From Gammaproteobacteria bacterium (lineage in GTDB: Bacteria; Pseudomonadota; Gammaproteobacteria; Xanthomonadales; Wenzhouxiangellaceae), in NCBI GenBank assembly GCA_021772985.1, contig JAJFKX010000056.1, forward strand, positions 1-64,000: 64,000 bases of DNA, in the 5' to 3' direction. Below the pieces are notes generated by a model. The model ran no database searches. It was not told the origin of the DNA and saw nothing but the letters and a program-made list of their open reading frames with translations. Position 1 is the first letter of the stretch, and each line of letters begins with the position of its first letter. The position numbers and the translations under genes were made by a program. Shown here one piece after another: positions 6,752 through 57,762 of this stretch.

Positions 6752-6964
6752 GGAGTAATTTTACATCAGGTACCAAGTATCTTGCTGGTAACAATTTATG
6801 CCTGCCCGGTGATTACCAAACATAACCTGCCTAACATCAATATTACATTGCACGATTACACCTTATCTTAGCACCGCCAATCCGATATCCCTTAATGAGT
6901 GACAACGGGCAACCTGGTCAATGTCTGGTTTTTTTCAAAAAATATCATTAAACCTGACAATCTG

Positions 6965-8509: not shown

Positions 8510-8576
8510 AAGCTTGTATTATAAATAATTAAACATTATTATCACAGCACAATTGACAAAACACAATGGAGCAGGA

Positions 8577-8984
8577 ATGTCACAAACGCCTGTGGAAAAA
8601 GATTACTTTTTAGCTGATATACGCACTGAGCTACGCGGCTTCCTTGACCAAGCCGGCCATGCGCAAGCAGTATTCATTTCCAGCTTAGACGGTCATCTTA
8701 TTTATGACATTAGCCCTGAGCAACTCGACGTGGATCAGCTGACTGCAATGGCATCAGCTATGATTGGTTTAGCCGATTCTTTAGCTTTTTCCTTGGCCAA
8801 AGGCCAGTTGCGTGATGTGATTACCCGTACTGAAGAAGCCACCTTTATCGCTACCCGTATAGGTAATACCGAAGATGCGCTCGTTTTTGGAATTATTGCC
8901 GGTCCGCAAGCAAACCTTGGTATGTTATTAAGTCTTGCCAACAGTTATGCTGAAAAAATATTAAATATTCTTGAGCATATTTAA
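8577..8984 (+). CDS. Roadblock/LC7 domain protein 1
   Basis: A 135-residue protein consisting of a single Roadblock/LC7 domain (AVFISSLDGHLIYD, then a long helix QLTAMASAMIGLADSLAF, a central strand and a C-terminal helix). Roadblock proteins such as MglB bind Ras-like GTPases as GAPs or adaptors. I chose the ATG at 8577 because GGAGCAGGA precedes it; a TTG 24 bases upstream is less likely. It is the first plus-strand gene of the module, followed by a 721-bp gap before the first GTPase. It is longer and more acidic than the other two Roadblock proteins, so the three are not simple duplicates. Confidence 0.85.
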   Translation: MSQTPVEKDYFLADIRTELRGFLDQAGHAQAVFISSLDGHLIYDISPEQLDVDQLTAMASAMIGLADSLAFSLAKGQLRDVITRTEEATFIATRIGNTEDALVFGIIAGPQANLGMLLSLANSYAEKILNILEHI

Positions 8985-9705
8985 TAGTTGGCATACGACT
9001 AAAAGTGTATATAACTGAGTACAGTCAAAGGTGCATCTGCCAAATCGATAATGTAGCTTAGGCCAACAGACAACGACGATAGAATTCGCTATTGCTCTCA
9101 GATTGAGATCAATCGCTAACAACTTGTAACATATAACAACACCGCCTAAACATGACACCCACAAAATTTATATCTCTGCGTATTAGAACACTGTTGACAT
9201 CTGAACACACAAATCCCGGTTGGTCTAGATGACCCCGTTATAACCACCAAACCTGCCTGTTCCAATCGGTCATTACATCTTAATAAAATAGCCGAGTTGT
9301 ATAGTCTAAATACCCATCCGGTTGCTGTTTTCCAGGGCAGATCCCCGCTAATATGCTATGTTTTCAAGTAGATACCGCCTTCCTTATATGCCATATGGCT
9401 TAACTTTTCATCGATAAAGCAGTTGCTCCCATTCGGTTAGATGCACACCTTATTAACACGGCACCAAACAGGCATTGAATACAATCTCCAAAGCACTTTA
9501 GATATATCATTTCGCTTGTTTTAGCAACATTGGCCTGTGTTATTAGGTAGTCACCAGCGTAAAGCCACGTTACCAACAATTATAAAACTTTAGTCCAATA
9601 GACTATATCGATAAGAGTTCTGTATGGTGCTAACTTACAAAAATAATAATTTCAAGCACGGAAGCAACTGCAAGCTTAATTTTAAACTAGGTTGGTTTCT
9701 GTTAG
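8985..9705. other. 721-bp non-coding gap inside the Roadblock/GTPase cluster
   Basis: AT-rich sequence with frequent stops in all frames and no ORF of credible composition. I see no clear terminator, tRNA or repeat. TTGACA at 9193-9198 is not followed by a good -10 box at normal spacing. It could be a promoter region with a long leader for the GTPase gene, an unrecognised RNA, or decayed coding sequence. Confidence 0.6.
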
Positions 9706-10680
9706 ATGCATGTTTTTTCATTATCAACGGCGGGGTTATCACGCCACGATAGAGTGCTTGTTCGGTCTTTATCCACACTTCTGACATCCCGCTTGCAGCA
9801 AAAGTGGGTGATCACCGATTCGGATGATATATGCCACGCGCTTTTGATTGATATTGACTTGCCCGGCAGTGATCTAATCATTAGTAATGCTTGCTCTCAA
9901 AAAAAAAGCCCCGTTGTCATACATGTAACAAGACAATTTGGTGATAATCACTTGAGTAAACCGATACGCAGTCAGCAATTCGTAGAAACCCTAAACAGGC
10001 TTGGCAATAAATTATCGCTTGATAAGGCTTCTGTCATTAAGCGTTTCCGCAATAAAGCATATTCTAAAGATGAATTAAAGCGCTTCGACAACAATCCATT
10101 ATCAACACAGCGTACGCCACTTTTAGAACGGTTACGAAATCGCCTCCTGCTGAATACCCACAAAACAATAAAAGTCGTATTTTTGGGCCCACCAGGAGCA
10201 GGCAAAACAACCGCAATAAAAACTGTTGGTGAATCAGCAGTAATCACTAGTGAAGTAAAATCAACCGATCAAGTAGGAATGATTAAAAGCAATACTACGG
10301 TTGCAATCGATCACAGCACGGTCAATCTGCCAAACAATTATCAAGCTCGCCTGTTTGGTGCACCAGGCCAGGCGCGATTAAGTTTCATGTGGCCAATTTT
10401 AGCTCGTGGTGCCGACCTGATTGTGCTTTTTTGTGATGCGACCGATATTGATTTTTTTGAACAAATGCAGAAATTTTCTAAATTACTTAGCACCAGCAAT
10501 ACTTGCGTTGCCTTAACACATACTGATTTAGAAACTGGCATAAACCTGGATCAAACCAGGCAAATGATCGCTAGCCTAGGCATGAGTTGGCCTGTACATC
10601 TAGTTGATGCCCGCAATAAACAACAAGTAATAACCATGTTGACCAGGGAGCTAGAAGCCAGTCGACAATCCATTCACTAA
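9706..10680 (+). CDS. Ras-like GTPase with receiver-like N-terminus
   Basis: A 324-residue protein. The C-terminal half is a small GTPase of the COG2229/MglA-like type: P-loop GPPGAGKTT (161-169), a switch I threonine in KSNTTVAID, LFGAPGQARLSF at the G3 position, and THTD (271-274) at G4. G3 lacks the usual Asp of DxxG, and the G4 Asn is replaced by Thr, so guanine specificity may be relaxed. The first 100 residues contain LLIDIDLPGSDLII and a SKPIRSQQFVETLN ending that resemble a degenerate response-regulator receiver fold; this is tentative. Two Roadblock genes follow directly, which supports a GTPase-partner relationship. The ribosome-binding site is weak. Confidence 0.8.
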   Translation: MHVFSLSTAGLSRHDRVLVRSLSTLLTSRLQQKWVITDSDDICHALLIDIDLPGSDLIISNACSQKKSPVVIHVTRQFGDNHLSKPIRSQQFVETLNRLGNKLSLDKASVIKRFRNKAYSKDELKRFDNNPLSTQRTPLLERLRNRLLLNTHKTIKVVFLGPPGAGKTTAIKTVGESAVITSEVKSTDQVGMIKSNTTVAIDHSTVNLPNNYQARLFGAPGQARLSFMWPILARGADLIVLFCDATDIDFFEQMQKFSKLLSTSNTCVALTHTDLETGINLDQTRQMIASLGMSWPVHLVDARNKQQVITMLTRELEASRQSIH

Positions 10681-10715
10681 AACCAAACCCTATTTTTGAG
10701 AGGAGAGATCAATAT

Positions 10716-11123
10716 ATGGCTGGACTAAATGATATCGTACAGGAACTGGTCAACAATGTTGACGACGCATTGGGCGCCGCTGTGGTTGACCTGGATTCGG
10801 GACTGCTGCTGGGTGTGGCACACAACGTTCCCTATTTTACACAATCGTATCTTGACGCGGTGGCCGCTGCTGCGGTTGATATGTTCCGTGGCAAAACGGT
10901 TAGTGCAGTAGAAGAACTAATCGCTGAACAACGCGGAACCGACCCCAAGCCTTTGATGAGTGAAATTCAAATGACATCGGAAAAGACCTTCCACTTTATG
11001 TCAATTGTTCCGGGCAAGGAAAAAGCCCTGACCGTACTGATTACAGGCAAAAAAACCAACCTGGGAATGGGCTGGTCAAACCTGCGTAAGGCATTGCCAA
11101 AAATTGCTCCACATTGCCCCTAA
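10716..11123 (+). CDS. Roadblock/LC7 domain protein 2
   Basis: A 135-residue Roadblock-fold protein (GAAVVDLDSGLLLGVAHN, then a helix rich in Ala, then FMSIVPGKEKALTVLI and a C-terminal helix). A strong ribosome-binding site, GAGAGGAGAG, precedes the ATG. It lies 35 bp after the first GTPase and 33 bp before a third Roadblock gene, so the three are probably one transcript. Family members form homodimers that bind MglA-like GTPases. Sequence divergence from protein 3 suggests either a heterodimer or different GTPase partners. Confidence 0.85.
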   Translation: MAGLNDIVQELVNNVDDALGAAVVDLDSGLLLGVAHNVPYFTQSYLDAVAAAAVDMFRGKTVSAVEELIAEQRGTDPKPLMSEIQMTSEKTFHFMSIVPGKEKALTVLITGKKTNLGMGWSNLRKALPKIAPHCP

Positions 11124-11156
11124 TAACCCACACAACAATACAACCAGGAGAACCCT

Positions 11157-11552
11157 ATGAGCGTTGATACAATTGTAAGCTCTACATTATCTGAAGTACC
11201 AAAAGCCGTTGCAGCCGGTGTTGTCGACATGGAAACCGGCATGCTGTTAGGCACCAAGACTACCGATTCACATCCTCAGGCTGTGCTCGATATGCTTGCT
11301 GCAGCAACCAAAGAGCTATTTGAAGGCGATATGATTATGAATATCGAGGATACCTTTAAGAAAGCTCGTGGTGACACTAGTTCTGAACACTATTTCCAGG
11401 AAGTTATCGTAAATTCGAAAAACCTGATTCACGTTTTTTCGCGATTAGCTTCTGCTCCGCATATAGTGGTCACTGTTGTTTGCCGTATCAATGCCAACCT
11501 GGGGTTGGTAGTGACAAAATTCAGGCAAATAATCACAACAGATACTGTTTAA
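11157..11552 (+). CDS. Roadblock/LC7 domain protein 3
   Basis: A 131-residue Roadblock-fold protein with the same beta-alpha-beta layout as its neighbour (AAGVVDMETGMLLGTKTT, long helix, IHVFSRLASAPHIVVTVVC, final helix). CCAGGAGAACCCT precedes the ATG as ribosome-binding site. It sits between protein 2 and the second GTPase. The shared ends of proteins 2 and 3 (a TxxNLG[ML]/NANLGL motif before the last helix) indicate old paralogy. Confidence 0.85.
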   Translation: MSVDTIVSSTLSEVPKAVAAGVVDMETGMLLGTKTTDSHPQAVLDMLAAATKELFEGDMIMNIEDTFKKARGDTSSEHYFQEVIVNSKNLIHVFSRLASAPHIVVTVVCRINANLGLVVTKFRQIITTDTV

Positions 11553-11572
11553 ACTAAGCGCCAATAAAATAT

Positions 11573-11599
11573 CCGGGCCTGTGGACTATGCAGGCCCGG
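11573..11599 (+). other. Intercistronic hairpin, possible attenuator
   Basis: A perfect 9-bp GC-rich stem (CCGGGCCTG / CAGGCCCGG) with a 9-nt loop lies between the third Roadblock gene and the second GTPase. No U-run follows, so it is not a standard terminator. It may stabilise the upstream Roadblock mRNA and set different expression levels for the two halves of the operon. Confidence 0.6.
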
Positions 11600-11626
11600 G
11601 GTTAACACCATTCAATACCACTTATC

Positions 11627-13141
11627 ATGAGTTGGCTTGATGCTGATAACGATGAAATTGTCGTTCGTATCGTCTATGCCGGTCCGGCTGATTCTGGCAA
11701 AACAACCAGCATTCGAAAACTCGCCAAATTATTGCTTGGCGGTAAACAAACCAAAGTCCATACACCCGAAGAGATTGGTGGTCAAACCATGTACTTTGAT
11801 TGGCTGGATTATACTGGCGGGCTGTTCCAGGGCAAACGCATCCGCTGCCAAATTCTTAGTACCCCAGGCCAGGATGAACTTGCTAAACGCAGGCAGTATT
11901 TATTGGAATCTGCCGACGTTTGTGTTTTTGTTTTTAGCTCAAATACTGATGAACTTAAGTATAATCATAATTATTTTTTGACCATTAATAAAATACTTAA
12001 AAAAGCCACACCTGATATTAACGTGGTATTCCAAGCTAATAAGCAGGATTTACCTGAGGCCCAAGATGAGGCCAGCGTTCGTGCTGCTTTTGGCATAGAA
12101 ATAGAAAAACAAATGCTGCTATTAACATCAGCAATCGATGGCCAAGGTATTCGCGAAGCATTTGTCAGTGCTGTGAGGCTAGCCTTAGAGCGGGCAATAA
12201 AACTGCAATTGTCCGACAGCCTTGATAATCATCCGCCTTTTGCCAACGATCCTAGCGAGCTATTAAAGAGGTTATCCGATGACGTATATGCTAGCGAATC
12301 ACCTGTACTCAGTGATGCTGCGCAACAACCGCCAATAACCGAGCAAACTACGCCTGACACAGAAAACAGCCCTGAGTCTGTCGCAAGCACCGCAAAATAT
12401 TCTTCAGTTAATCTCAAACAGCAGGATCAGACTGATAATACCAACATGGTGATGCCATTTGAAACTGCCTCCCATCAGTTAATTTACCAAAACAATCATG
12501 AACGACGACTGCACAATGAAATAACCTGTTCGATGAGTTTTAAACGGGAGGTACTACCACAACGTTGGTACATTACCCTGGAGCGCCAATGGAAAATCAT
12601 CAATAACCCAAATAACCTTTATGCTAATAAAGCAGCAGCAAGAATAGCGCTGGACAAAATCAAGAAAATCACAGTTGCTTTGAGCAATATACTTTCACCG
12701 CAAAGGTGGCATTTGGCAGCAGCCTTCGGTGATCAATGGCAAATATGGCAATATGTTGCCGTGTTGCCAACGTTACGCTCAAACATGAATCTGTATATAG
12801 CTAACAAAGATTCAAAAAAACTAGCAACTCAGCTTGCAAAAACATACCAACTGGCCACCGAATTTACCCAAAAAGCCTGGCAATATAATCCAACCCTGCA
12901 TATATCACTGGACACTATCAGCATTATCCAAGAGCAACCTTATTACTCTGGCTTCTTGGCTTTTCGCAGCAAGTCAAATTTAAACTTGACAGCTTTCATA
13001 ACCAAATTATTCCATGATGTTTTTATAGAAATTAAGCAATCAAGGCCTCAACTCTTTATCGAAACCAAACAATCGATTAGTGATATAAGTAACCTGGATA
13101 ACTCAGCTAAATCTCTGCACAATATTCTGCGGGATATTTGA
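11627..13141 (+). CDS. MglA-like GTPase with C-terminal extension
   Basis: A 504-residue protein. Residues 10-190 form a Ras-superfamily GTPase: P-loop GPADSGKTT (19-27), Thr 54 in GGQTMYFD, G3 STPGQ (78-82) with Asp replaced as in the MglA group, canonical G4 ANKQD (137-141) and G5 TSAIDGQG. Residues about 195-285 are low-complexity and probably disordered. Residues 285-504 are a separate domain (ITCSMSFKREVLPQRWYITL, then IWQYVAVLPTLRSNMNLYI) that I cannot assign. In MglA systems the GTPase switches partners at cell poles; here the extension may bind the effector. The stop codon overlaps the start of the ABC-phosphatase gene (TGATG). Confidence 0.85.
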   Translation: MSWLDADNDEIVVRIVYAGPADSGKTTSIRKLAKLLLGGKQTKVHTPEEIGGQTMYFDWLDYTGGLFQGKRIRCQILSTPGQDELAKRRQYLLESADVCVFVFSSNTDELKYNHNYFLTINKILKKATPDINVVFQANKQDLPEAQDEASVRAAFGIEIEKQMLLLTSAIDGQGIREAFVSAVRLALERAIKLQLSDSLDNHPPFANDPSELLKRLSDDVYASESPVLSDAAQQPPITEQTTPDTENSPESVASTAKYSSVNLKQQDQTDNTNMVMPFETASHQLIYQNNHERRLHNEITCSMSFKREVLPQRWYITLERQWKIINNPNNLYANKAAARIALDKIKKITVALSNILSPQRWHLAAAFGDQWQIWQYVAVLPTLRSNMNLYIANKDSKKLATQLAKTYQLATEFTQKAWQYNPTLHISLDTISIIQEQPYYSGFLAFRSKSNLNLTAFITKLFHDVFIEIKQSRPQLFIETKQSISDISNLDNSAKSLHNILRDI

Positions 13142-39192: not shown

Positions 39193-40029
39193 CTAAAGCC
39201 CGCGAATCCCCCGACATTTCGGATAGCTGGAACACCCCCAGAATTGATTGCCCGCATTGCTGCCCTGGCGGGCAGTTCGCAGCACCATTTTTAGGTTGCA
39301 GTTGGGGCAGCTTGGGTTTTGAGATAGTGGTTGGTGCTCCGGTGCCTGCTGTTCGGCAAGGTCTATTGAATCCGGACTGACACGCCGGATGATTTCACGA
39401 CCATCAATCAATTCGATATTTCTGCCACGCACAAAATCACTCGCACTTTCGGTAAACTCGCCGGAGGTCACCACAAAGCCACCAACCGCACCCTTAGCGG
39501 CGATTGCCCCCAGCAATTCACGCACCACTTTGACGCCCACCCTGGTTGCCCGCCATTGTTTGCACTGCACCAGGTATTTATCACCATCTTTGATAACGAC
39601 CAGATCTATGCCGTCATCCGGGCCGGTTTGTGCCAGTTGTCTGACGGTATAACCTTGTTGCTGGAAGAATTGGCCGACCAGCAATTCAAATTCACGCCAC
39701 GAAGTTTCGTTTAGCGTTTGCAGCTTTGGATTTTTGACCAGATGGCCATAAAGCCTTTTCTTTTTGCGGCTGGAGATTATCGAAACCACTGCACCAATGA
39801 GAAAATAAAATGGCAATACATACTGTAATATCCGGGCAACACTGATGAACATTTGCTTGGTAACAACACGGCCCATGTCTTGCATATTCGATGTTGTTTC
39901 GACCGGAACATCTGAGAACAAACCCAAACCAAAATAGGCAATACCTGCCAGACCGATACTGATCCACCAGGGGAATTTGGCGGATGCGCTGATGATGAGT
40001 GTTGCGAGTGATTCGTTTCTTCTTGCCAT
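39193..40029 (-). CDS. Membrane Mrr-type nuclease-like protein with zinc finger
   Basis: About 278 residues. Two hydrophobic helices (WWISIGLAGIAYFGLGLF and ILQYVLPFYFLIGAVVSII) are followed by an Mrr_cat nuclease domain (WREFELLVGQFFQQQGY, DDGIDLVVI, YLVQCKQW, GFVVTSGEFT); Asp and QxK residues of the active site are present. The C-terminus is a topoisomerase-type zinc finger (CPNCNLKM... CSSYPKC). Mrr nucleases cut methylated DNA. Membrane attachment is unusual for that role. I start at the ATG at 40029. It lies next to a second, soluble Mrr-like gene. Confidence 0.87.
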   Translation of the reverse strand: MARRNESLATLIISASAKFPWWISIGLAGIAYFGLGLFSDVPVETTSNMQDMGRVVTKQMFISVARILQYVLPFYFLIGAVVSIISSRKKKRLYGHLVKNPKLQTLNETSWREFELLVGQFFQQQGYTVRQLAQTGPDDGIDLVVIKDGDKYLVQCKQWRATRVGVKVVRELLGAIAAKGAVGGFVVTSGEFTESASDFVRGRNIELIDGREIIRRVSPDSIDLAEQQAPEHQPLSQNPSCPNCNLKMVLRTARQGSNAGNQFWGCSSYPKCRGIRGL

Positions 40030-40077
40030 CCTTTGCAAAGCCTCTATTAATTTATTTAACGACTATCCGCACGTTTA

Positions 40078-40986
40078 TTATGGATCTTCGAAATAATCTG
40101 TATCAATTCTTTTTATCGCAATGTTGCGGATGGTTGAAACACCAATACTATGCTCAATCATCAAATCGGCAAGCCTCGCACCATCAATTAAAATAATTTT
40201 TTGAGTCACAGCTTTTGCATAGTCAATTGCAGTATTGGCAAAAGTACTTGTGGTTATAAATACGCCTTTGTTGGCCTGTTTACCGGCAAGCGCACCGACA
40301 AAGCTTTGAATTTCTTTACGCCCTACGGTATTTTGCCAGCGCTTCGCTTGGACATAGATAACATCAAGACCAAGACGGTCTTCATTGATGACACCATCAA
40401 TACCTTCATCATTGGATTTTTTTGTGACGTGAGCAGCTTCTTCTCTTGAACCTCCGTATCCCATCGCAAATAATAAATCCACAACCAACTTCTCAAAACG
40501 AAATGGATCCATTTCTGCCATAACATCTAATAGTGAGTTCGCTAAAGAATCATTGAGTTCTTCGAAGGCTTCCTCAATTCTTTCATTTGGAGGTTGGAAT
40601 TCAGCTTCATTTGCGATTGTAATCAATGGTTTCTGTTTTTTAGGCGCATGAAACCAAGCTTTATGCCTTGGAATGGTATCAAGAAACTTAAGGTTAAGGT
40701 TTGGAGGCGGTGCTTGAAGGAGATTCATTCCCTCCTCTGAAATACGGTAATTTCCTCGTGTTACTTGTTCAACTAATCCAGCTTTATTGAGATGAGTTCT
40801 GGCCCAGCCAGCTCGGTTCGCAAGTCGAGTAGATTGCCCACTCGGAATCATTTCTTGCTTATCTTCTTCACTAAGCTCGAAATAGTTTTCCAATGCCTTC
40901 TTCACCTCTCGCATATGATGAACTTCTCTATCTGAGAGAAATTGAAGAAAGGGAAGGAACATTTCCTGGAATCCAGGTACCGCCAT
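40078..40986 (-). CDS. mrr: Mrr-family restriction endonuclease
   Basis: About 302 residues. The N-terminus (FLPFLQFLSDREVHHMREVKKALENYF, then ARTHLNKAGLVEQVTRGNYRISEEG) is the Mrr winged-helix recognition domain, and the C-terminal domain (FRFEKLVVDLLFAMGYG, DEGIDGVI, DVIYVQAKRW, GVFITTSTFA) is the Mrr catalytic domain. The family cuts DNA containing foreign methylation and can respond to high pressure. The ATG at 40986 is chosen over a start 12 bases upstream. It is visibly AT-richer than the flanking metabolic genes, compatible with transfer. Confidence 0.92.
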   Translation of the reverse strand: MAVPGFQEMFLPFLQFLSDREVHHMREVKKALENYFELSEEDKQEMIPSGQSTRLANRAGWARTHLNKAGLVEQVTRGNYRISEEGMNLLQAPPPNLNLKFLDTIPRHKAWFHAPKKQKPLITIANEAEFQPPNERIEEAFEELNDSLANSLLDVMAEMDPFRFEKLVVDLLFAMGYGGSREEAAHVTKKSNDEGIDGVINEDRLGLDVIYVQAKRWQNTVGRKEIQSFVGALAGKQANKGVFITTSTFANTAIDYAKAVTQKIILIDGARLADLMIEHSIGVSTIRNIAIKRIDTDYFEDP

Positions 40987-41116
40987 GTTATTTAGCATCC
41001 ATTAATTAGTGAGTTTTTTATTCAAGAATGAATATTGATAGTACGATAAACATGCAAAATTATGATCCCCGCCTTTCATGTGACCTTCTTAAATTTAACC
41101 TTGGCGCTTTACCTTA

Positions 41117-46832: not shown

Positions 46833-47672
46833 CTAGAACGACGCACGGAACTGTGTTGCATTGAGATTCACATGAGATGCTATATTTCCATTGAGCTGGA
46901 ATAGTCTTGTGTCATATGAAAAGTCGAACACCCGATAAAGCGAGAAATTTTCTGAACATTCTTTTGAAAAGGAAAGCTCGTTAACAGATAACAAAAATGG
47001 TTGGTACTTGCCTGCATTTGTCGTTTTGACTTCAATGAAACGCGGCTCATCAGTTTCACCGAAAAACGAACGAATATCGTAACCAACACCGTCACCCTTC
47101 TCTTTACTGGTCCATTCAATATCGTCTGCCAAATCTTTTCTTCCCATGTTCTGTAGCCTACACTTTTCAAACTCCAAAACAAACCCTTCACCCAGCTCAC
47201 CCAACCGCCTGTTTCTCGCCTCCTTTTCAGCGTAGCTGATACGCAAAGGCGATCGAGACTGAGAGTCTCGAACCGACATATGCAATACCATCTCAGGTGG
47301 CTCCACTACGATGTTATCAATTCGATCAGGACAGGTTTGTGCGGCACATCGGCCAATCAGTGCGCCCTCAGCAGATTTCAGCATTTGATCTGAGATAGCA
47401 ATACGTTCCAGAACTACCATTTCGAGAAGCTCCTGATAGTTCCAAGCTGGTTTATATCCGCGGATGTAGATATGGCCAGCTCTTATGAGAACGGCACTGA
47501 TGTTTTGGTGTTTGTACTCAATCGAACCATCAGAGCGATTATTTAACTTGCTCTGAAGTGCACGACGATGAGCTGCTTTGCTGTAATTCTTGCCGAGGCA
47601 CTCAGAATTAAGCATGTCAAAATAATCAGCAACTATTGCCTCGCATTCAAGTTGAGACCACTGTTTGTCCAA
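46833..47672 (-). CDS. DUF3883 nuclease-like protein
   Basis: 279 residues. The C-terminal part carries a DUF3883 domain: LGEGFVLEFEKCRLQNMGR, DDIEWTSKEKGDGVGYDIRSF, RFIEVKTTN and SFSKECSENFSLYRVFDF. The D...ExK pattern matches a PD-(D/E)xK fold, so a nuclease role is likely. The N-terminal part (residues 1-150) is unassigned. The start is TTG with a very strong ribosome-binding site (GGAGGAGGAG), which decides it. It faces away from the methyltransferase operon across 677 bp and is the obvious candidate restriction component. Confidence 0.8.
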   Translation of the reverse strand: MDKQWSQLECEAIVADYFDMLNSECLGKNYSKAAHRRALQSKLNNRSDGSIEYKHQNISAVLIRAGHIYIRGYKPAWNYQELLEMVVLERIAISDQMLKSAEGALIGRCAAQTCPDRIDNIVVEPPEMVLHMSVRDSQSRSPLRISYAEKEARNRRLGELGEGFVLEFEKCRLQNMGRKDLADDIEWTSKEKGDGVGYDIRSFFGETDEPRFIEVKTTNAGKYQPFLLSVNELSFSKECSENFSLYRVFDFSYDTRLFQLNGNIASHVNLNATQFRASF

Positions 47673-48349: not shown

Positions 48350-49486
48350 ATGAAACCTGAATGCAATAAGTTATTGAATTGTATAGATTTATTTTCAGGC
48401 GCCGGGGGCTTTTCGCTATCAGCCAAACTAGCTGGCCTTAAAGTCCGCCTCGCGATTGAAAACAATCCACATGCCATTGACACTTATCGAAATAACCTTT
48501 GTGAAGAAGAAGAAAACTCAACGGTTGTAATCGATAAGGACATATCAACTCTCACCCCGATTGATATCCATTCCGAACACTTCAATGATAATCCACGATG
48601 CGATCTATTGTTGGGAGGACCACCATGTCAAGGGTTTTCAGCGCATAGAATCAAGGATGCAGGAGTAGGTGATTCTCGAAATAGTCTCATCCACATTTAC
48701 TTCGAGTTTGTACGAACATTCAAACCCACTGCATTTCTCATGGAGAATGTTCCTGGAATGTTGTGGCCAAGACATAAGGACTATTTGGAGAGATTCTTCA
48801 TGGAAGCCCGTGAAGCGGAATATTTCTTATATGATCCAGTAGTTTTGGATTCACGCGACTATGGCGTCCCACAAAGACGTAAGCGTGTCTTTATTCTTGG
48901 TATAAAAAAAGGTGTAGATATATCGAATTTTATTTGGCCTCCGACAGAAAGCCACGGTAAACATGAAAAGCACCTAAAGAACCCAAACTTAACACCGTGG
49001 ATAAATTGTGCCGATGCGTTCACCAAACCTGTTCCTAAGGACGATCCAAACGATATACATATGCATCACTCCAATGAACTTGTCAATGCCTTCAAACGTA
49101 CCCCACCTAACGGCGGTAGCAGAAAAGACTCAGGACGAGTACTCAAATGTCATGAAGAATATGATGGGCACAATGATGTATACGGACGGATAGACTCGAG
49201 GGCACCTGCACCTACAATGACAACTGCATGCATAAACCCATCGAAAGGCAGATTTGTACACCCGGTAGAACATCATGGCATTACTGTAAGACAGGCTGCC
49301 CGCTTGCAGACTTTCCCTGATGATTTCATTTTTGAAGGTGGTCTTATTGCTGCCGGGCAACAAATAGGCAACGCCGTTCCGATCAAGCTTGGCCAAGTAT
49401 TGATTGAACACATAAAACCGCTGTTGGAAGCACAGCACTATGCACAAAACCCACCCGAGACCTGCAAAAAATATCAAATCGCATGA
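48350..49486 (+). CDS. C5-cytosine DNA methyltransferase
   Basis: 378 residues with the full set of C5-methyltransferase motifs: CIDLFSGAGGFS (I), LLLGGPPCQGFSAHR with the catalytic Cys (IV), FLMENVPGML (VI), YGVPQRRKRVFILG (VIII), VRQAARLQTFPDDF (IX) and QQIGNAVP (X). It methylates C5 of cytosine in a short sequence that the target-recognition region (about 215-310) decides. It is the first gene of an overlapping operon with a GHKL ATPase, a receiver protein and Vsr. The ribosome-binding site is weak. Confidence 0.93.
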   Translation: MKPECNKLLNCIDLFSGAGGFSLSAKLAGLKVRLAIENNPHAIDTYRNNLCEEEENSTVVIDKDISTLTPIDIHSEHFNDNPRCDLLLGGPPCQGFSAHRIKDAGVGDSRNSLIHIYFEFVRTFKPTAFLMENVPGMLWPRHKDYLERFFMEAREAEYFLYDPVVLDSRDYGVPQRRKRVFILGIKKGVDISNFIWPPTESHGKHEKHLKNPNLTPWINCADAFTKPVPKDDPNDIHMHHSNELVNAFKRTPPNGGSRKDSGRVLKCHEEYDGHNDVYGRIDSRAPAPTMTTACINPSKGRFVHPVEHHGITVRQAARLQTFPDDFIFEGGLIAAGQQIGNAVPIKLGQVLIEHIKPLLEAQHYAQNPPETCKKYQIA

Positions 49487-52467
49487 TCAGCGGGATTTCA
49501 TTTCAAACAAGGGCGCGTACGGTCGATCACTTGGGCCGGGAGCAGATTGCCGACACACCTACAGCAGTATCTGAACTTTGGAAAAATGCCTTTGATGCCT
49601 ATGCGCGCCATGTGGAACTGGGTATCTATGATGGGGAACAGCCCGTTGCCGCCATGATTGATGACGGACATGGGATGAATCGGGAAGAATTCATTAATCG
49701 CTGGTTGGTGGTCGGTACTGAATCCAAAGTTACATCAAAAAAAACACCCTTGTCTGGTAGAAACGGTCTCCGCCCGCGGACTCGCCAAGGCCAAAAAGGA
49801 ATAGGTAGGCTATCGTGTGCAAACCTTGGATCGACTCTTTTCCTTATATCGAAAAGGTCTGAATCGGATTTTGTCGCTTCACTGGTTGATTGGAGACTGT
49901 TCGAAAACCCCTTCCTTAACCTAGCTGATATTCAGCTACCGGTTGCGGAATTTCCAGATAAAAATGAGATTTTTGAGCAGCTTCCAAGCCTTATTAACGA
50001 ATTGGTTGAAAATATCAAAGGGGGCGGTGCTGATAAACATCGCAGCCAAAGAATCAAAGAAGCATGGTCGGCCTTTGACGAGCTACATCGCGATGAAATC
50101 AAAGAAGGCATCGCCACCAGGTCCCAACAGCCTTCTGAAGCGATCATCACCGAGTTGCAATGCTTGCCCTTCGATGAGCGCCACCTCGATCAATGGCAGG
50201 TCTGGACAGACAAGGGAACACATGGAACTGCCTTGCTAATTGCCAACATAAACTACGATCTGCGCATACAACTACAAGAACAGATCTCGGATTCGTCAGC
50301 GAAGAATACTAAAGATCGTTTTTTTGAAACTTTGTCGAGTTTTGTGGATCCCTTCGTTGATCCCTCTCAACCGGAAGTGAACGCGGTTGATCATCAATTT
50401 TCTTACGCCGTTAAAACCTGGATAGAAGAGAAATCAAAGTTAATCCTTGGTTCCGATAAGCAATTTGACCTGCATACTATCGAACCAATGGAACATCAAA
50501 TCATAGGAACCATTGATGAAAAAGGCATATTCAAAGGCAAGGTGAAAGCATTTGGAGAGTGGATTCCAGATGATTGCGTCATTGAGCCACCCAAAGATCT
50601 GAAGATACCAAAACGCGTTGACAGCAAAGTTGGACCCTTCGACTTCTTTATTTCATCTATGGAATTTAGCTTAATTAATAGCACTCACACAAAAGATGAA
50701 TATGAATATTTTCGTGAGGTAGCTGAACGCTATGCTGGTTTTATGATCTTTCGTGATGGTTTAAGAGTAATGCCGTTCGGACGGACCGATAATGATTTTT
50801 TTGAAATCGAGCATCGCAGAAGCAAAAGTGCAGGACGCGAGTTTTGGAATCATCGGCAAATGTTCGGCCGCCTTGCTATCAGCAGACTGAACAACCCCAA
50901 TTTGAAGGATAAAGCCGGCCGAGAAGGTCTATTGGATAACCGCGCAGCTAAAGCGTTAAAAGAGCTTGTGTCGAATATTTTGATGACATTGGCCAGACGA
51001 TATTTCGGTTCCGCTTCCGATATACGTAATGAAGTCCTTCCTGAAATAAGGGAAACGAATCAGAAGAAACGAGCAGCAGAAGCACGTAATGCCCTCAGGA
51101 AAAGCCAACGTAAAAAGTTCAGGTCGCGTCTCAAGAAATTAACTGCCGAGCTACCGAGTTTTGCCGAGGAAGTATCGACCTATTCAGCAAACCTTAATTT
51201 AAACAATGAATCGGATATTGCAGAAGCCCAAAGTACCGTCGAAAGTTTCAAAGATCGCTTATCGGATTTTCGACTGCCCGGAGCTCCTACGAAATTGGGT
51301 ACATCGAAGGAAAGTTATACAAAATTCCGGGAAGAAATGCGCGCACTTCATTCCGATGTTGCTTCGCTTACAGAATTCTTGGATCAGGAAATAGAGCGAG
51401 TAAAGCCAACAAATCCCCAGGAACTTCTGGAAAAACAAGTGGCTAGGAACGCAGCACAACTACATCGACGGATTCAGGAGTGGAAAAAAAGCATTCAAGC
51501 TCTACAAAAAGCTGAATACAACCGCATTCATGAACTCATCAAACAGAGAAACAAAATTTTCCACGCCGAAGCTATTCCGCTTATCCATCAGTTGGAAACA
51601 GGGAAACAAAGTTTCTCTGAAATCTCCAAACACTTGGAACTCATAAAGCTGAAATTGGACGATGAAAATGAAGATCTATTCGTTCCCTATATCGGCGCTC
51701 TTGAGAGTTTGGCGGAAAGCATTGACCTCGAGCATCTGGCCACTTTCGGCATGGAGGAATTGAGTGATCTAAGAAGCGAATTAAATAGATTGAACAGCCT
51801 CGCGCAACTTGGAATCGCGGTTGAAATTGTCGGCCACGAGCTGCAATCCTATGACGAAATAATTGGATCAGGGTTACGTCGGCTACCGGAGAAGGTGCGG
51901 AAAGGAAAAGCAGCAAAAGATATTGAATTCGGATACGAAGGTTTGACGGATCAATTGCGGTTTTTGTCACCGCTAAGGCTTGCTGGTCAGAAGATCCAGA
52001 AATGGATCACTGGTGAGGAAATATACTCATATCTGAATGACTTCTTCAAAATTACACTAACAAAAAGCAAAATAACCTTTACGGCATCGCCAGAATTCAG
52101 ACAATTCAGAGTTTATGATCAACAATCAAGACTACTGCCGGTCTTCATCAATTTGATGAACAACAGTGTGTACTGGTTAAGCGTGAGTGAAAACGATGAA
52201 CGCCGAATCACCTTTGATGTTGTGGGGGAAGAAATTGTCGTTTCCGACAACGGCCCGGGGATCGAGCCGGAAGATATTGAAAATCTTTTTACTCTTTTTT
52301 TCACTAAAAAAATACGCGGCGGCAGAGGGGTTGGACTCTATTTATGCAAGGTCAACCTCGCCGCAGGCAACCATCGCATCAAGTATGAGCCGTCTTCCAT
52401 CGGCATGCCTTATAACGGCGCAAATTTTTTGATTAACTTTAGGGGAGCTGAGTTCAATGACGAATGA
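49483..52467 (+). CDS. Dual GHKL protein: MORC-like ATPase plus histidine-kinase core
   Basis: 994 residues. The N-terminus is a GHKL ATPase of the MORC/MutL-like type: TAVSELWKNAFDAYA (Asn 35), MIDDGHGM (60-65), and a lid RQGQKGIGRLSCANLGS. A long helical, coiled-coil middle (about 530-730) follows. The last 210 residues read as a full histidine-kinase core: LGIAVEIVGHELQSYDE with His 785 as candidate phosphoacceptor, N-box INLMNNSVYWL (893-894), G1 VSDNGPGIE (Asp 922), and G2 GGRGVGLYLCKVNL. Seen: both ATP sites. Known: GHKL/MORC proteins sit in some restriction systems (Iyer et al. 2008). Inferred: a sensor kinase in a defence operon. It overlaps its neighbours by 4 and 11 nt. Confidence 0.85.
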   Translation: MISGISFQTRARTVDHLGREQIADTPTAVSELWKNAFDAYARHVELGIYDGEQPVAAMIDDGHGMNREEFINRWLVVGTESKVTSKKTPLSGRNGLRPRTRQGQKGIGRLSCANLGSTLFLISKRSESDFVASLVDWRLFENPFLNLADIQLPVAEFPDKNEIFEQLPSLINELVENIKGGGADKHRSQRIKEAWSAFDELHRDEIKEGIATRSQQPSEAIITELQCLPFDERHLDQWQVWTDKGTHGTALLIANINYDLRIQLQEQISDSSAKNTKDRFFETLSSFVDPFVDPSQPEVNAVDHQFSYAVKTWIEEKSKLILGSDKQFDLHTIEPMEHQIIGTIDEKGIFKGKVKAFGEWIPDDCVIEPPKDLKIPKRVDSKVGPFDFFISSMEFSLINSTHTKDEYEYFREVAERYAGFMIFRDGLRVMPFGRTDNDFFEIEHRRSKSAGREFWNHRQMFGRLAISRLNNPNLKDKAGREGLLDNRAAKALKELVSNILMTLARRYFGSASDIRNEVLPEIRETNQKKRAAEARNALRKSQRKKFRSRLKKLTAELPSFAEEVSTYSANLNLNNESDIAEAQSTVESFKDRLSDFRLPGAPTKLGTSKESYTKFREEMRALHSDVASLTEFLDQEIERVKPTNPQELLEKQVARNAAQLHRRIQEWKKSIQALQKAEYNRIHELIKQRNKIFHAEAIPLIHQLETGKQSFSEISKHLELIKLKLDDENEDLFVPYIGALESLAESIDLEHLATFGMEELSDLRSELNRLNSLAQLGIAVEIVGHELQSYDEIIGSGLRRLPEKVRKGKAAKDIEFGYEGLTDQLRFLSPLRLAGQKIQKWITGEEIYSYLNDFFKITLTKSKITFTASPEFRQFRVYDQQSRLLPVFINLMNNSVYWLSVSENDERRITFDVVGEEIVVSDNGPGIEPEDIENLFTLFFTKKIRGGRGVGLYLCKVNLAAGNHRIKYEPSSIGMPYNGANFLINFRGAEFNDE

Positions 52468-54205
52468 ATACTATTCCGAATTCATAGAAAAAGCCTTCAT
52501 CAAACCCATTCGTTCTGTTCTGATTGTTGATGATGATTATCCCACATTCGATGAAATTCTCAGCGCCCCCATCAATTCTGAAGGACATCTTGAAATCACT
52601 TCAGGAAAAAGGTGGCACCAGAGTCAAAAACACATATGGAACGTAATAAAAGCCTTTAGATCATCAAACCGTCCACTGCTTGTAGATATTCATGATGGAA
52701 CAGACTTAGCAAAAGATGGGCAAGCAAATGTCACAGCCCATCTTCATCAAACTGATCTACTGATTCTAGATTACGAGCTCGATAAATCGAGACAAGGCGA
52801 CGGCACACAGGCTGTTGAAATTATCCGTAGCCTCATGAAAAACGACCACTTTAATTTGGTGATCGTTCATACACGTGAGAGTTTGGACAATGTGTTTAAC
52901 GCCATCTTGGTTGGGCTTATGGCACCTCATGAAAATATTCTTTCAGATACGGAGCTAACTGAAGCTCAAACGCTGGTTGAAGAAATTGAAGATGACAATG
53001 ATGGTTTTATAGACCAGATACTCAATACCGTAGCAACAGAACAGTATTTTGATTTCAGAAGATGTCCTAAATATCTCCGAAAAATGGGTATGGGAAAAGA
53101 ACCTTACTCTGCATTCAAAAGTTTGTACGACTCAAGCGGATGCGATAGAAACAACGCAAGCCTGATATTTAAATATGCATTAAAAGAGCACGAAAATGGC
53201 CTTCTCAATAAAATGAACATTAACTCCGATAAAGAGTTAAGCTGGTCAAATGAAACAAACAAATGGATTCGATCGGATTCCGTTTTTATCGCATTTTCAC
53301 AAAAATCCAGCAAACTCAACCTGCTCACAGAACTCCAAAGCGCATTAAATGATTGGAACCCTCACCCCTCCAGGCTCTTCCTAACCATGCTAAGAGCTGA
53401 AATGGATGAGCTTGGAGTGGTTGCCCAAAGCCATGCCTTGGACAACAAGTATGCACTTGCCCATTGGTATCATCACCTTCTTTCAGCTGACGGTTCTGAA
53501 CAGCGTTGGGACGTTTCGAAAAGCGTTTCTCGTCATTCAGATCAATTACTGAGCACAATACTCCCTCGGGTTGAAAGATTTGCAACAGACTTGGTAAACA
53601 ATGAACGAATGAGTGATGACGCCGGCATGATCTGCAAAAATCACTTCAAAGTGGATTTAACAAATGTCGATATAAAACGCAAAGCAGAACGAGAGCATTT
53701 TGTTTTCGTGTGCAGTAAAAAACCTGAGGGATGGCACCTTAGATCAGGGCATGTTTTTGTCATGCAAGAGAAATATTGGGTCTGCTTATCACCGGCATGT
53801 GACATGGTTCCATCACAAATACCCCCTTATCATAAAGATGCATTCGGAAATAAATTGCCGTTTATTGCAGTTAAACTTTCTGAGGTAAGCAATTATAAAG
53901 AAATTAAAACTGATAAATTAAAAAGATATGTATTTCTAAGAATTGATACAGATATGAAAAGCTTTAGTTTCGCACAAAAAAATGACTCAAAACCTGAGTG
54001 GCACTTACTCTATGCAAACAACAAAGGCGAATTTGAAAACAATACATTTAATTTATTTATCTCACAAGCTGAGCAAGGCGCAACACGACTAGTTTTTAAT
54101 AGACATCAGGCAACAGTTGTCAGCCAAATCCGATACGAATATACCCTAAATCTGATACAAAAGCTTGGAATTTCAATGACACGCGTTGGTCTCGATTTTG
54201 TATGA
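52457..54205 (+). CDS. Receiver-domain protein of a defence operon
   Basis: 582 residues. An N-terminal receiver domain is seen: SVLIVDDDYPTFDEIL (acidic pair 25-27), DLLILDYELDKSR (phosphoacceptor Asp 105) and VIVHTRES (Thr 139), with a longer-than-usual insertion before the Asp. The remaining 430 residues are a long unassigned region (LNDWNPHPSRLFLTMLRAEMDELG, then WVCLSPACDMVPSQIPPY) with no nuclease motif that I can identify. It overlaps the GHKL/HK gene by 11 nt, so phosphotransfer from the histidine-kinase-like end of that protein is the natural hypothesis. Similar receiver proteins are known in Pfam as Response_reg_2. Confidence 0.8.
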   Translation: MTNEYYSEFIEKAFIKPIRSVLIVDDDYPTFDEILSAPINSEGHLEITSGKRWHQSQKHIWNVIKAFRSSNRPLLVDIHDGTDLAKDGQANVTAHLHQTDLLILDYELDKSRQGDGTQAVEIIRSLMKNDHFNLVIVHTRESLDNVFNAILVGLMAPHENILSDTELTEAQTLVEEIEDDNDGFIDQILNTVATEQYFDFRRCPKYLRKMGMGKEPYSAFKSLYDSSGCDRNNASLIFKYALKEHENGLLNKMNINSDKELSWSNETNKWIRSDSVFIAFSQKSSKLNLLTELQSALNDWNPHPSRLFLTMLRAEMDELGVVAQSHALDNKYALAHWYHHLLSADGSEQRWDVSKSVSRHSDQLLSTILPRVERFATDLVNNERMSDDAGMICKNHFKVDLTNVDIKRKAEREHFVFVCSKKPEGWHLRSGHVFVMQEKYWVCLSPACDMVPSQIPPYHKDAFGNKLPFIAVKLSEVSNYKEIKTDKLKRYVFLRIDTDMKSFSFAQKNDSKPEWHLLYANNKGEFENNTFNLFISQAEQGATRLVFNRHQATVVSQIRYEYTLNLIQKLGISMTRVGLDFV

Positions 54206-54242
54206 ATTGAAATCGAATTTTTCTTATAATGCAAGAGATCAA

Positions 54243-54716
54243 GTGGTTTTGACCGATACGGTTCCCCTTCAGGTTCGAAGCCGGATAATGGCCTCGGTTC
54301 GAGGCAAGAATACTCAACCCGAATTGCTATTGCGAAGACATCTTCACCAGGCAGGATATCGTTATCGCCTCCATGCGAAAAACCTACCGGGAAAACCCGA
54401 TCTCGTTTTTCCACGCCTGTGCGCGATATTGTTTGTGAACGGCTGTTTTTGGCACGGACATGATTGCTACAGGTTCAGCTGGCCTAAAACTAGGGAAAGC
54501 TTCTGGCGTGAGAAAATCCTCGGCAATATGGAGCGAGACAAGCGTAATCAACAAGAGTTGGCTTTACTGGGATGGAGGGTCGGTATTGTTTGGGGGTGCG
54601 CGCTACAAGGAAAGTATAAACTCGGTATTAATGAAACAACGGAAAAGTGTATTCGTTGGCTTGAAAGCTCTACGAAAACTTTTTCAATAGTAAACAGCTC
54701 TCAAGCAAAGATGTAA
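54243..54716 (+). CDS. vsr: Very short patch repair endonuclease (Vsr)
   Basis: About 157 residues. The whole Vsr pattern is kept: VPLQVRSRIMASVRGKNTQPELLLRRHLHQ, YRYRLHAKNLPGKPDLVFP with the catalytic Asp, and LFVNGCFWHGHDC with His and Cys zinc ligands. Vsr nicks 5' of a T in T:G mismatches that arise from deamination of the methylated C. The start is uncertain: GTG at 54243 has a fair ribosome-binding site (AAGAGA), while a TTG at 54186 overlaps the previous gene. It ends the operon that starts with the C5-methyltransferase whose damage it would repair. Confidence 0.9.
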   Translation: MVLTDTVPLQVRSRIMASVRGKNTQPELLLRRHLHQAGYRYRLHAKNLPGKPDLVFPRLCAILFVNGCFWHGHDCYRFSWPKTRESFWREKILGNMERDKRNQQELALLGWRVGIVWGCALQGKYKLGINETTEKCIRWLESSTKTFSIVNSSQAKM

Positions 54717-55331: not shown

Positions 55332-55560
55332 TCGCGGATGGAATCCGCTCCTACAATTCCGGGTAATATTCATCGCCCCAAATATCCTGTAGGGGCGCAC
55401 CTGGGCGCGACCTGTTGTTGTGGTAGATTTATCGCGGATGGAATCCGCTCCTACAATTCTGGGTAATATTCATCGCCCCGAATATTCTGTAGGGGCGTAC
55501 CTGGGCGCGACCTGTTGTTATGGGTAGATTTATCGCGGATGGAATCCGCTCCTACAATTG
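55332..55560. repeat. 100-bp tandem repeat array with REP-like monomers
   Basis: Three copies of TCGCGGATGGAATCCGCTCC at 55332, 55432 and 55533, in the same orientation and with centre GGA, separated by a second element GTAGGGGCGYACCTGGGCGC and the word GGTAATATTCATCGCCCC. Period 100-101 bp. All monomers face one way, unlike the inverted pairs elsewhere. The 442-bp region 55151-55592 holds no gene. Confidence 0.9.
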
Positions 55561-55592
55561 TGTACGGTTAATATTGATAGCTTAAAAAAGGA

Positions 55593-56492
55593 TTATTTTC
55601 TTTTCGTGCTAAAAAACTGCTGTGAGAAAATCTCAAGCCATTTTAAGCAGTCAACCAGCTTCCATATGCTCTGCCTTTGCATATCTCGAGCAAACTGCTC
55701 CACTTTGTCGGGCTGATCGAATAATGCGCTGTTTAAAAATGATTTGGTCGATGCCAATGCAATCCCCCCCGCATCTCGGCCTAATTTCATTGCACAGGCT
55801 TGCTCGATATCCCAGTTCTGCGCTTCCATGAAACCCTGTTCATACAGCGCATCAAAAATTTCCGGTATCTTTTGATAAGTTTGAATCAAATAAGCAAAAT
55901 CAGCAGCGTCCTTGGATTTCAGGTCAACCTCTCTATCTACCCAGGCAACCAGCTTAAGAACAGCAACCCCGGGCGGTGAAGCCACTGAAATAATGCTCAT
56001 AGGGTTTTTACTGATTTGCACTTGCAATGCATGTTCAAAAACTTCTTCAAAGCCATGCACATTCATAATAAATGCCTGATCGGGGGGCCAACCTATGGTT
56101 TGGTTGGGTTTCGCAATGCCACCAAAAGGGACAATATCGATTTCCCAAGGGAGATCGTCATCATCTCGCCAATGCAGGCGATGTAGCCTATTGGAGTCTG
56201 GCCGATAACCTGTCGAAATCAGCATGTTCCGCAAAGCATTAAACTCATCCCAGCCTGCTACATTGATGGCAAAATCAACATCCCTGGTGCCGCGCTCAAT
56301 AGCAGCACCATAGCCATGAACCAACACCAAATCTCTGGCCATCGCACCAACCACCATAAAATCGATGTTTAATGATGCCGCATGGCTGGCAACATCCAAA
56401 TACAGCGCCACCAAACCCTTAGGAAGTTTACCGACAATATTAACGCAGGTATTTTTCACGAATTCTGTTCGCTGTATCGATATTACGCGCAT
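55593..56492 (-). CDS. Nucleotidyltransferase, AbiEii-like toxin candidate
   Basis: 299 residues. The nucleotidyltransferase fold is visible as FMVVGAMARDLVLVHGYG followed by RGTRDVDFAINVAG (D71-V-D73) and WEIDIVPFGG (third acidic residue). AbiEii toxins of type IV systems are such nucleotidyltransferases, modifying tRNA or nucleotides. The start is uncertain: ATG at 56492 overlaps the upstream gene by 53 nt, while GTG at 56459 would leave a 20-nt overlap. The pair with the AbiEi-like gene suggests a toxin-antitoxin function. Confidence 0.8.
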   Translation of the reverse strand: MRVISIQRTEFVKNTCVNIVGKLPKGLVALYLDVASHAASLNIDFMVVGAMARDLVLVHGYGAAIERGTRDVDFAINVAGWDEFNALRNMLISTGYRPDSNRLHRLHWRDDDDLPWEIDIVPFGGIAKPNQTIGWPPDQAFIMNVHGFEEVFEHALQVQISKNPMSIISVASPPGVAVLKLVAWVDREVDLKSKDAADFAYLIQTYQKIPEIFDALYEQGFMEAQNWDIEQACAMKLGRDAGGIALASTKSFLNSALFDQPDKVEQFARDMQRQSIWKLVDCLKWLEIFSQQFFSTKRK

Positions 56493-57495
56493 CGCCTGAT
56501 TCGATCAGGTCGGCGTAAACAATAAGTGGATGTACGCTATCCATGGATTGTATTGATTGCATAGTCCCGGTCCAAAACGGTTCAACCAGATCAACACGCC
56601 AATCTGGTTGCTGGTGAGCATTAACCGCTTTTAGCCTCGTGCTTTGCAAAAAACTGGAAACATCCGCCCTATCAATATAGACCACGGCATTTTTGGGGTT
56701 AAGGTATTGGGTGTATTGTGCAGCGGCCACCTCCCCTGCCCATAGAGCATGCAACGGCTTTATGTTTACTGATTTCCACCATTGTGGATTATTACCAGTA
56801 AAAACACCTAACCTTTGCTTGGCTTTTAATTGATGTGGATAAGCCTCCACCCATTTATCAATAAGCCTGTCCACATTACTCAGTTTCCTTTGACGCTTTT
56901 TAATGCCTTCCAGTAAAAAACCCTGTGCTGTCAAATCATGGAGCACCCAGCCAACTGTGCCCAGGGCTACTTTTGCTGTTTTCGCTATTGTGCGGTATGG
57001 CGCGTTAATTAACCCTTGATCTTTAAGGAAAGCAAACACCACCCGCATGCCAGATGGTGAAAAGGCCCGGCCGGTTTTTTCCTGTTTATTGACCAGGCTA
57101 TTAGCCGTGGGTTTGTTCCCGGTGATATATACAAATACAGGTGGTTGATTTATATAAGCATTCCCCACTGTATCGATAAACTGAATACCTTGATGTTTCA
57201 AAGCTTCTGCACGATTACTATTAATATAGTCGGTTACCAATAATCCTTCATGCGACTCTGCCATGGAAAGCAGCTGATTTATCATAGAACCCAAGTGTGC
57301 ATGGGATGCCCATTTCTTGACCTCCACTACCAAGCGCTTATCTGTACCGTTCAATTGGACGATAGCATCTATGCGCCTTCGCCCATCGGGCATCAACACT
57401 TCACGATCTACAACCTCCAGGCGTAAGCCAGCCTCACGCTCTATGGCCGCTATAGCGCGAATTAATATTTCCTGTTCTGTGATGAGTCTATCCAT
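56440..57495 (-). CDS. AbiEi-like antitoxin/regulator with nuclease-like N-terminus
   Basis: 351 residues. The middle and end (FAFLKDQGLINAPYRTIAKTAKVALGTVGWVLHDLTAQGFL, then VVYIDRADVSSFLQSTRL and PLIVYADLIESGDARNIDTANRIREKYL) match the type IV antitoxin AbiEi: winged helix plus a C-terminal antitoxin domain. The first 130 residues add a fold with RRIDAIVQLNG and RLVVEVKKW (D43, E58, K60), which resembles a PD-(D/E)xK nuclease. The order antitoxin then toxin and the overlap fit a type IV system. The pair is flanked by direct repeats. Confidence 0.8.
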   Translation of the reverse strand: MDRLITEQEILIRAIAAIEREAGLRLEVVDREVLMPDGRRRIDAIVQLNGTDKRLVVEVKKWASHAHLGSMINQLLSMAESHEGLLVTDYINSNRAEALKHQGIQFIDTVGNAYINQPPVFVYITGNKPTANSLVNKQEKTGRAFSPSGMRVVFAFLKDQGLINAPYRTIAKTAKVALGTVGWVLHDLTAQGFLLEGIKKRQRKLSNVDRLIDKWVEAYPHQLKAKQRLGVFTGNNPQWWKSVNIKPLHALWAGEVAAAQYTQYLNPKNAVVYIDRADVSSFLQSTRLKAVNAHQQPDWRVDLVEPFWTGTMQSIQSMDSVHPLIVYADLIESGDARNIDTANRIREKYLR

Positions 57496-57609: not shown

Positions 57610-57762
57610 TACACGGATGTAGTCGGCTCCTGCAATTTCGTATTGCATCCATCATTCCGAATATTCTGTAGCAGCGCAGCTGGGCACGACCTGTCGTTGC
57701 GGTTAGTTTGATCGCGGATGGAATCCGCTCCTACAATTGTGTACGGTTATATTGATAACTTG
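57610..57762. repeat. Downstream copy of the 55.5-kb repeat unit
   Basis: About 150 bp resemble 55431-55582 in the same orientation: a decayed REP-like monomer at 57613, then CCGAATATTCTGTAG, GCACGACCTG, ATCGCGGATGGAATCCGCTC and CAATTGTGTACGGTTA. The two copies flank the AbiEi/nucleotidyltransferase pair as direct repeats. Confidence 0.85.

Follow-up and report, generated by a model that had tools for sequence, protein, structure and literature searches.

A cytosine methyltransferase operon encoding a MORC-type ATPase with a histidine-kinase core and an adjacent receiver protein, a further member of the HEF_HK/Response_reg_2 modules

The window, i.e., the whole stretch of 64,000 nt analysed here, belongs to a contig (C52) of a 4.85-Mb genome and contains four co-directional genes on the forward strand in the order DCM, HK, RR and Vsr. 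DCM (48350..49486, +) encodes a C5-cytosine DNA methyltransferase of 378 aa (PF00145, 1.2e-61; TIGR00675, 1e-46), and HK (49483..52467, +) a protein of 994 aa in which, according to its domains and a structural model, a MORC-type GHKL+S5 ATPase at the N-terminus is joined to a histidine-kinase core at the C-terminus. RR (52457..54205, +) encodes a receiver protein of the Response_reg_2 family with 582 aa (PF19192, 2e-19; model pLDDT 90.3), and Vsr (54243..54716, +, starting with GTG at 54243 or TTG at 54249) a very-short-patch repair endonuclease (PF03852, 3e-26; TIGR00632, 5e-41). The initial annotation of this DNA had described a four-gene operon with overlaps of 4 and 11 nt; Pfam and TIGR profile matches confirm the domains of all four genes, and the overlaps are correct, with 4 nt (ATGA) shared by DCM and HK and 11 nt by HK and RR. 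A probable overlap of Vsr with RR had been proposed as well, and a TTG at 54186, which lies within the RR gene, could serve as the start of a longer Vsr ORF. However, the family match begins at residue 29 of this extended ORF and the plausible starts at 54243 and 54249 lie 37-43 nt past the RR stop codon, and therefore this overlap is doubtful and Vsr probably follows RR without one. The operon is horizontally acquired. Its G+C content is 39-47% compared to 49-50% in the flanks, and the RR family is present in only one of the 61 genomes searched, namely that of the window, and in none of the 60 relatives.

The HK protein contains the domains HATPase_c_3 (residues 27-130, 1.2e-17), HEF_HK (775-832, 5e-7) and HATPase_c (881-969, 7.5e-15), each of which exceeds its Pfam cut-off. 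In an AlphaFold model built on an alignment of 72 sequences, residues 8-515 (49504..51027, +) are predicted to form an ATPase module of the MORC/SMCHD1/Hsp90 type, which matches MORC3 (5ix2_B; Z 17.9, 335 aligned residues, rmsd 4.2) and SMCHD1 (Z 17.5), and the fold match to the ATPase module of MORC3 indicates that the N-terminal GHKL domain is joined to an S5 domain. The nucleotide-binding residues E31, N35, D60, G62, G64, G106 and G108 are invariant in the 72 HK sequences. Weak similarity of the same GHKL domain to the restriction enzymes BbrUII/HgiDII was also observed (NF050001, 3.5e-17, residues 12-129). The module is followed by a long helical, coiled-coil-like linker (residues 516-755; 51028..51747, +) and by a DHp-like helix pair corresponding to HEF_HK (PF19191; residues 756-830; 51748..51972, +), whose helices span residues 757-799 and 809-827 in the monomer model, with low pLDDT in this part. 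The catalytic ATP-binding domain (residues 837-990; 51991..52452, +; PF02518, 7.5e-15) matches ThkA (3a0y; Z 16.8, rmsd 2.5), and residues 756-990 as a whole match the entire cytoplasmic part of HK853 (2c2a) with Z 16.4 over 220 residues. The N and G boxes of the kinase core are intact, since N890, N893, N894, G924, G947, G949 and G951 are invariant in the 72 sequences, as is H785 (51835-51837), the presumed phospho-acceptor histidine.

RR matches PF19192 with 70.9 bits, above the cut-off of 27. In an AlphaFold model based on an alignment of 77 sequences, residues 17-300 (52505..53356, +) adopt a receiver fold similar to PorX (Z 9.5) and CheY (Z 9.1); a helical segment is inserted ahead of its final strand, which carries K283. 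The residues D25, D26, D105 (codon 52769-52771) and K283 are invariant in the 77 relatives, and T139 is conserved in at least 90% of them. A helical linker (residues 304-419; 53366..53713, +) leads to a C-terminal barrel (residues 425-577; 53729..54187, +), which is specific for this system, being confined to PF19192 proteins in a search of 398 genomes, and which we presume to be the output domain. Within this C-terminal region G431, C448, D449, R576 and G578 are invariant and R559 is conserved in at least 90% of the 77 proteins. Neither a DNA-binding output domain in RR nor a catalytic site in the barrel was recognised, and comparison of the RR profile with PDB sequences returned nothing credible. 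At the level of structure, the barrel can be aligned with MazF-mt1 (6l2a; 102 residues, rmsd 3.5) with Z 7.9 and with the Kid-type toxin 7bye with Z 7.7, both below the value of 8 from which the aligner is trusted, and CcdB (1vub) appears in the Foldseek list with a probability of 0.54. A homology to MazF was not supported by profile comparison (hhalign probability of 0.2% against 30 PemK/MazF sequences), and a PemK match is absent from the families listed for the 77 RR proteins. Since the profiles are not supportive and the Z values fall into a range in which unrelated folds appear, the weak resemblance of the modelled barrel to MazF/CcdB folds makes a toxin a lead only. The initial annotation had named a complete histidine-kinase-type core at the end of the ATPase, a receiver protein encoded beside it, and H785 and D105 as the putative residues of phosphotransfer; all of this was supported by the fold match to HK853, the PF19192 match of the overlapping RR gene and the invariance of both residues, and the DHp-like helix, for which a structural model was to be consulted, is present as a pair, although with low pLDDT. 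Both ATPases of HK as well as the phosphorelay look active, as judged from these residues.

For a census, one genome per species was scanned by RR alone, which resulted in 80 species-level loci. HK adjoins RR at all 80 of them, with a few HK genes truncated or broken, a DCM is found nearby at 76, and the order HK-RR is conserved. A chance arrangement is therefore excluded, and judged by gene content the conserved unit is DCM-HK-RR. Plasmid copies exist in Rhizobium with the order HK-RR-DCM-Vsr and in Pantoea and Pseudoalteromonas with DCM-HK-RR lacking Vsr. Moreover, a triad of this family is present in 205 of 5,426 complete Escherichia coli genomes in copies at least 99% identical to one another, there without an adjoining Vsr. 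It is followed in E. coli by an HNH_2 McrA-like gene annotated as phosphorothioated-DNA-binding (Type IV-like), which in L127 (triad at 5697-11772, HNH_2 gene at 12017-12889) lies 244 bp past RR. An unrecognised nuclease recurring beside the triad was also considered and rejected, because all-against-all clustering of the neighbours revealed no recurrent nuclease gene other than Vsr, and the larger clusters were represented at no more than 14 and 10 of the 84 loci. Two loci keep an intact HK-RR pair with no intact DCM next to it: in Phyllobacterium (L032:89-9008) MzaB, MzaD and MzaC-like genes are followed by a decayed DCM fragment and the HK-RR pair, and in L034 no DCM is within reach. Both genomes contain other DCMs of a different type, and in L032 a full one is located just upstream on the same contig. 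A single-sequence query with the RR of the window found no relative in viral contigs. The viral families phrog_8137 and phrog_7659 of PHROGs match the C-terminal part of HK (3e-113) and RR (1e-16); phages or prophages therefore carry parts of the HK-RR system.

Vsr of the window matches the E. coli Vsr protein (1cw0, 6.5e-32) and keeps its residues E25, D51, H69, H71, C73, D97 and C117, the Zn ligands among them. Position H64 of the E. coli protein is replaced by Asn (54438-54440), likewise in L030, L033, L035 and L075. DCM, which writes m5C, and Vsr, which repairs T:G, are natural partners in this genome, because Vsr is the sole member of its family found in the genome and the single-copy DCM is the only PF00145 (m5C methylase) gene found there. 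Among the 80 loci Vsr occurs at 33 and is missing from 47, and its placement varies (11 downstream and co-directional, 9 upstream and co-directional, 9 upstream and reversed, 4 downstream and reversed). Vsr is thus optional, and it is highly probable that it serves as an accessory that repairs T:G mismatches.

The methylase itself can be exchanged. Five loci close to that of the window, whose HK proteins show 56-62% identity, encode another methylase downstream of RR; its identity to DCM is about 34-36% over the catalytic part and, for the recognition domain, 17-23%. When ten loci with the type-A methylase were compared with five of type B, identity between the types in the core of the recognition domain dropped to 0.18-0.23 of that within the types, whereas over stretches of 40-50 residues no comparable dip was found in HK (ratio 0.92 overall, minimum 0.76) or RR (0.90 overall, minimum 0.81). 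The distance correlation over 72 loci is 0.95 between HK and RR, a value inflated by shared ancestry, and 0.41 between HK and DCM. By the comparison of type-A with type-B loci HK-RR would contain no matching site-recognition module, unless both methylases share a site or a few residues suffice.

The system is conserved and has been catalogued since 2021. Bellieny-Rabelo, Pretorius and Moleleki (2021; PMC8011034) defined PF19191 (HEF_HK) and PF19192 (Response_reg_2), reported a linkage of both of 91.6% over 644 regions, and found the order HATPase_c_3+HEF_HK+HATPase_c in 174 of 222 proteins, their group 1. They also described C5 methylases as over-represented, with DCM upstream, in a test of the association with restriction-modification (R-M) against shuffled genomes, and Vsr genes, found in 20 genera, as mostly located directly downstream of RR (PMC8011034). 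The context of GHKL, DCM and Vsr, without a receiver, had been described before by Iyer, Abhiman and Aravind (2008), who also cite GHKL proteins including MutL as known partners of Vsr (PMC2292703). The R-M context assumed in the initial annotation is supported, while the novelty claimed there for the kinase core with an adjacent receiver does not stand, as the pair, DCM and the downstream Vsr were published in 2021. In domains, domain order, RR adjacency, upstream C5 methylase, downstream Vsr and invariant His and Asp the window operon agrees with this system without any structural difference, and it is another member of the HEF_HK/Response_reg_2 modules that travel with C5-cytosine methylases. 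Added here beyond PMC8011034 are the optional nature of Vsr, the exchange of the methylase, K283 behind the insertion, the C-terminal barrel of RR and the count in E. coli. In the literature we found no phage, biochemical or other functional assay of this family.

Several known systems share parts of this architecture. The paraMORC/MORC ATPases of R-M operons have the same N-terminal GHKL+S5 module and co-occur with DCM and Vsr, but carry a nuclease or TIR domain at the C-terminus where HK has the histidine-kinase core, and they are accompanied by a helicase or a stand-alone gene of the restriction endonuclease fold (PMC2292703); a domain search of the HK C-terminus and the operon genes revealed no such nuclease or helicase apart from Vsr. 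In Mza, as defined by the PADLOC profiles MzaB/C/D, a MutL-like GHKL protein is likewise combined with R-M-type genes, and in the Phyllobacterium locus HK-RR directly follows such genes, but the window operon encodes neither a Z1 nor a DUF4420 protein. Detocs, said to have been introduced by Rousset et al. in 2023, is reportedly a two-component phage defence that also comprises a histidine kinase and a receiver, with a purine nucleoside phosphorylase (PNP) as effector and neither a methylase nor a MORC-type module. No PNP domain was found in the domain search of the operon proteins. With Type II R-M systems the operon shares the methylase (PF00145). As regards a restriction endonuclease for the same site, no nuclease gene recurs beside the triad, and HK and RR do not co-vary with the recognition domain of DCM. 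PADLOC-DB contains no model for the whole HK or for RR.

That the operon combines a methylase, a soluble protein uniting a MORC-type ATPase with a histidine-kinase core, and a receiver with all phosphotransfer residues is practically certain from sequence and model. We regard a phosphorelay between HK and RR as very likely and a role in defence as fairly probable, and RR is slightly favoured as the output. Taken together, our working interpretation, to which we assign somewhat less than even confidence, is that the operon acts in methylation-linked defence by means of a two-component relay with phosphorylated RR, and not Vsr, as its output. DCM would mark the host DNA with m5C, and the MORC-type module would engage DNA, alone or in complex with protein, as a sign of invasion or of a lost mark, but would not itself read the DCM site. 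The engaged state would then switch autophosphorylation of H785 and transfer to D105 of RR, and phosphorylated RR might act via its C-terminal barrel, either as an effector that blocks growth or targets nucleic acids, or by recruiting such an effector in the manner of an adaptor; Vsr would not be an effector, but would repair T:G mismatches arising from deamination of the m5C set by DCM. We prefer this interpretation because of the invariant residues, the conserved triad, the optional Vsr, the swap of the methylase, the single DCM and Vsr, the mobility, the defence-type neighbours and the published association with R-M. Against it count the barrel, in which no catalytic site was recognised and whose likeness to MazF/CcdB lies below the aligner's level of trust, the lack of a PADLOC-DB model for the whole HK or for RR, and the fact that a regulation unrelated to phages would leave much the same pattern. 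A more specific version appears rather unlikely, namely a restriction or abortive-infection system gated by the phosphorelay and lacking any classical nuclease, in which a MORC-type DNA clamp would be the input domain of the soluble kinase and the receiver, once phosphorylated, would itself be the effector by way of a MazF/CcdB-like barrel.

Four other explanations have to be weighed against this methylation-linked relay. The least probable is the one proposed in the initial annotation, in which Vsr is the defence nuclease switched by phosphotransfer from HK to RR. The gene is the last and co-directional one of the operon, in 11 loci it lies downstream on the same strand, and GHKL proteins such as MutL are partners of Vsr (PMC2292703). 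However, its absence from more than half of the loci, its scatter over both sides and strands in the others, its mismatch-repair residues, its position beside the only m5C methylase of the genome and the E. coli triad lacking an adjoining Vsr led us to reject Vsr as core nuclease and make this proposal very improbable. It is also quite unlikely that HK and RR jointly serve as site-specific restriction enzyme in a Type II-like R-M system of the ordinary kind, with phosphotransfer or ATP only powering cleavage at unmethylated DCM sites. The match of the GHKL domain to BbrUII/HgiDII would fit, as would the lack of another nuclease gene recurring beside the triad. Yet no known nuclease fold was found, and the methylase was exchanged (recognition ratio of 0.18-0.23) without a matching change in HK or RR; HK-RR is therefore unlikely to be such an enzyme. 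The intact HK-RR in L032 and L034, next to a DCM fragment or without a nearby DCM, argues, albeit not strongly, against a constitutive restriction enzyme.

A device for abortive infection or addiction, in which HK is activated by lost or disturbed methylation or replication and the phosphorylated RR is a toxin resembling MazF/CcdB, has to be considered unlikely. It would explain the structural alignments of the barrel with MazF-mt1, the Kid-type toxin and CcdB, but these may reflect merely a common arrangement at Z values below 8, the profile comparison does not support them, and HK-RR persists in L032 and L034 without an intact adjacent DCM. To the same degree we doubt that HK-RR is a regulator unrelated to defence, tuning expression or methylation upon a cytoplasmic signal. 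For Pectobacterium, HEF_HK/Response_reg_2 relatives were reported to be up-regulated under stress in planta (PMC8011034), all parts look soluble and a toxin or nuclease is unproven, which would be in line with a regulator; the patchy and mobile distribution, the defence-type neighbours and an RR without a recognised DNA-binding output domain speak against it.

The operon thus belongs to a methylase-linked class that carries a complete two-component relay, and if this relay gates immunity, self-marking by methylation would be coupled to phosphosignalling. The swap of the methylase and the optional Vsr direct the search for the effector to RR rather than to Vsr. Since about 4% of the complete E. 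coli genomes contain a triad of this family, its function can be tested in a laboratory strain.

In the window the operon is bordered on one side by a NOV_C gene, which belongs to the PADLOC candidate family PDC-S36, and on the other by an AbiE-like pair. The NOV_C protein (46833-47672, −; PDC-S36, 1e-98) has a D...ExK-like nuclease core and is encoded divergently from DCM. As a member of PDC-S36 directly follows and overlaps RR in L023 and another lies near RR in L044, this protein may be an occasional fourth component. A few kb upstream of the operon, two adjacent Mrr-type genes (39193-40998, −), one with Mrr_N and the other with a topoisomerase zinc ribbon, adjoin a NERD gene and a HipA/HTH pair, so that this is a dense defence region. 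On the other side, the AbiEii/AbiEi-like pair (55593-57495) is flanked by a 136-nt direct repeat in three copies that are 70-81% identical (55335-55570, 57614-57749), which are perhaps traces of the insertion of this pair.
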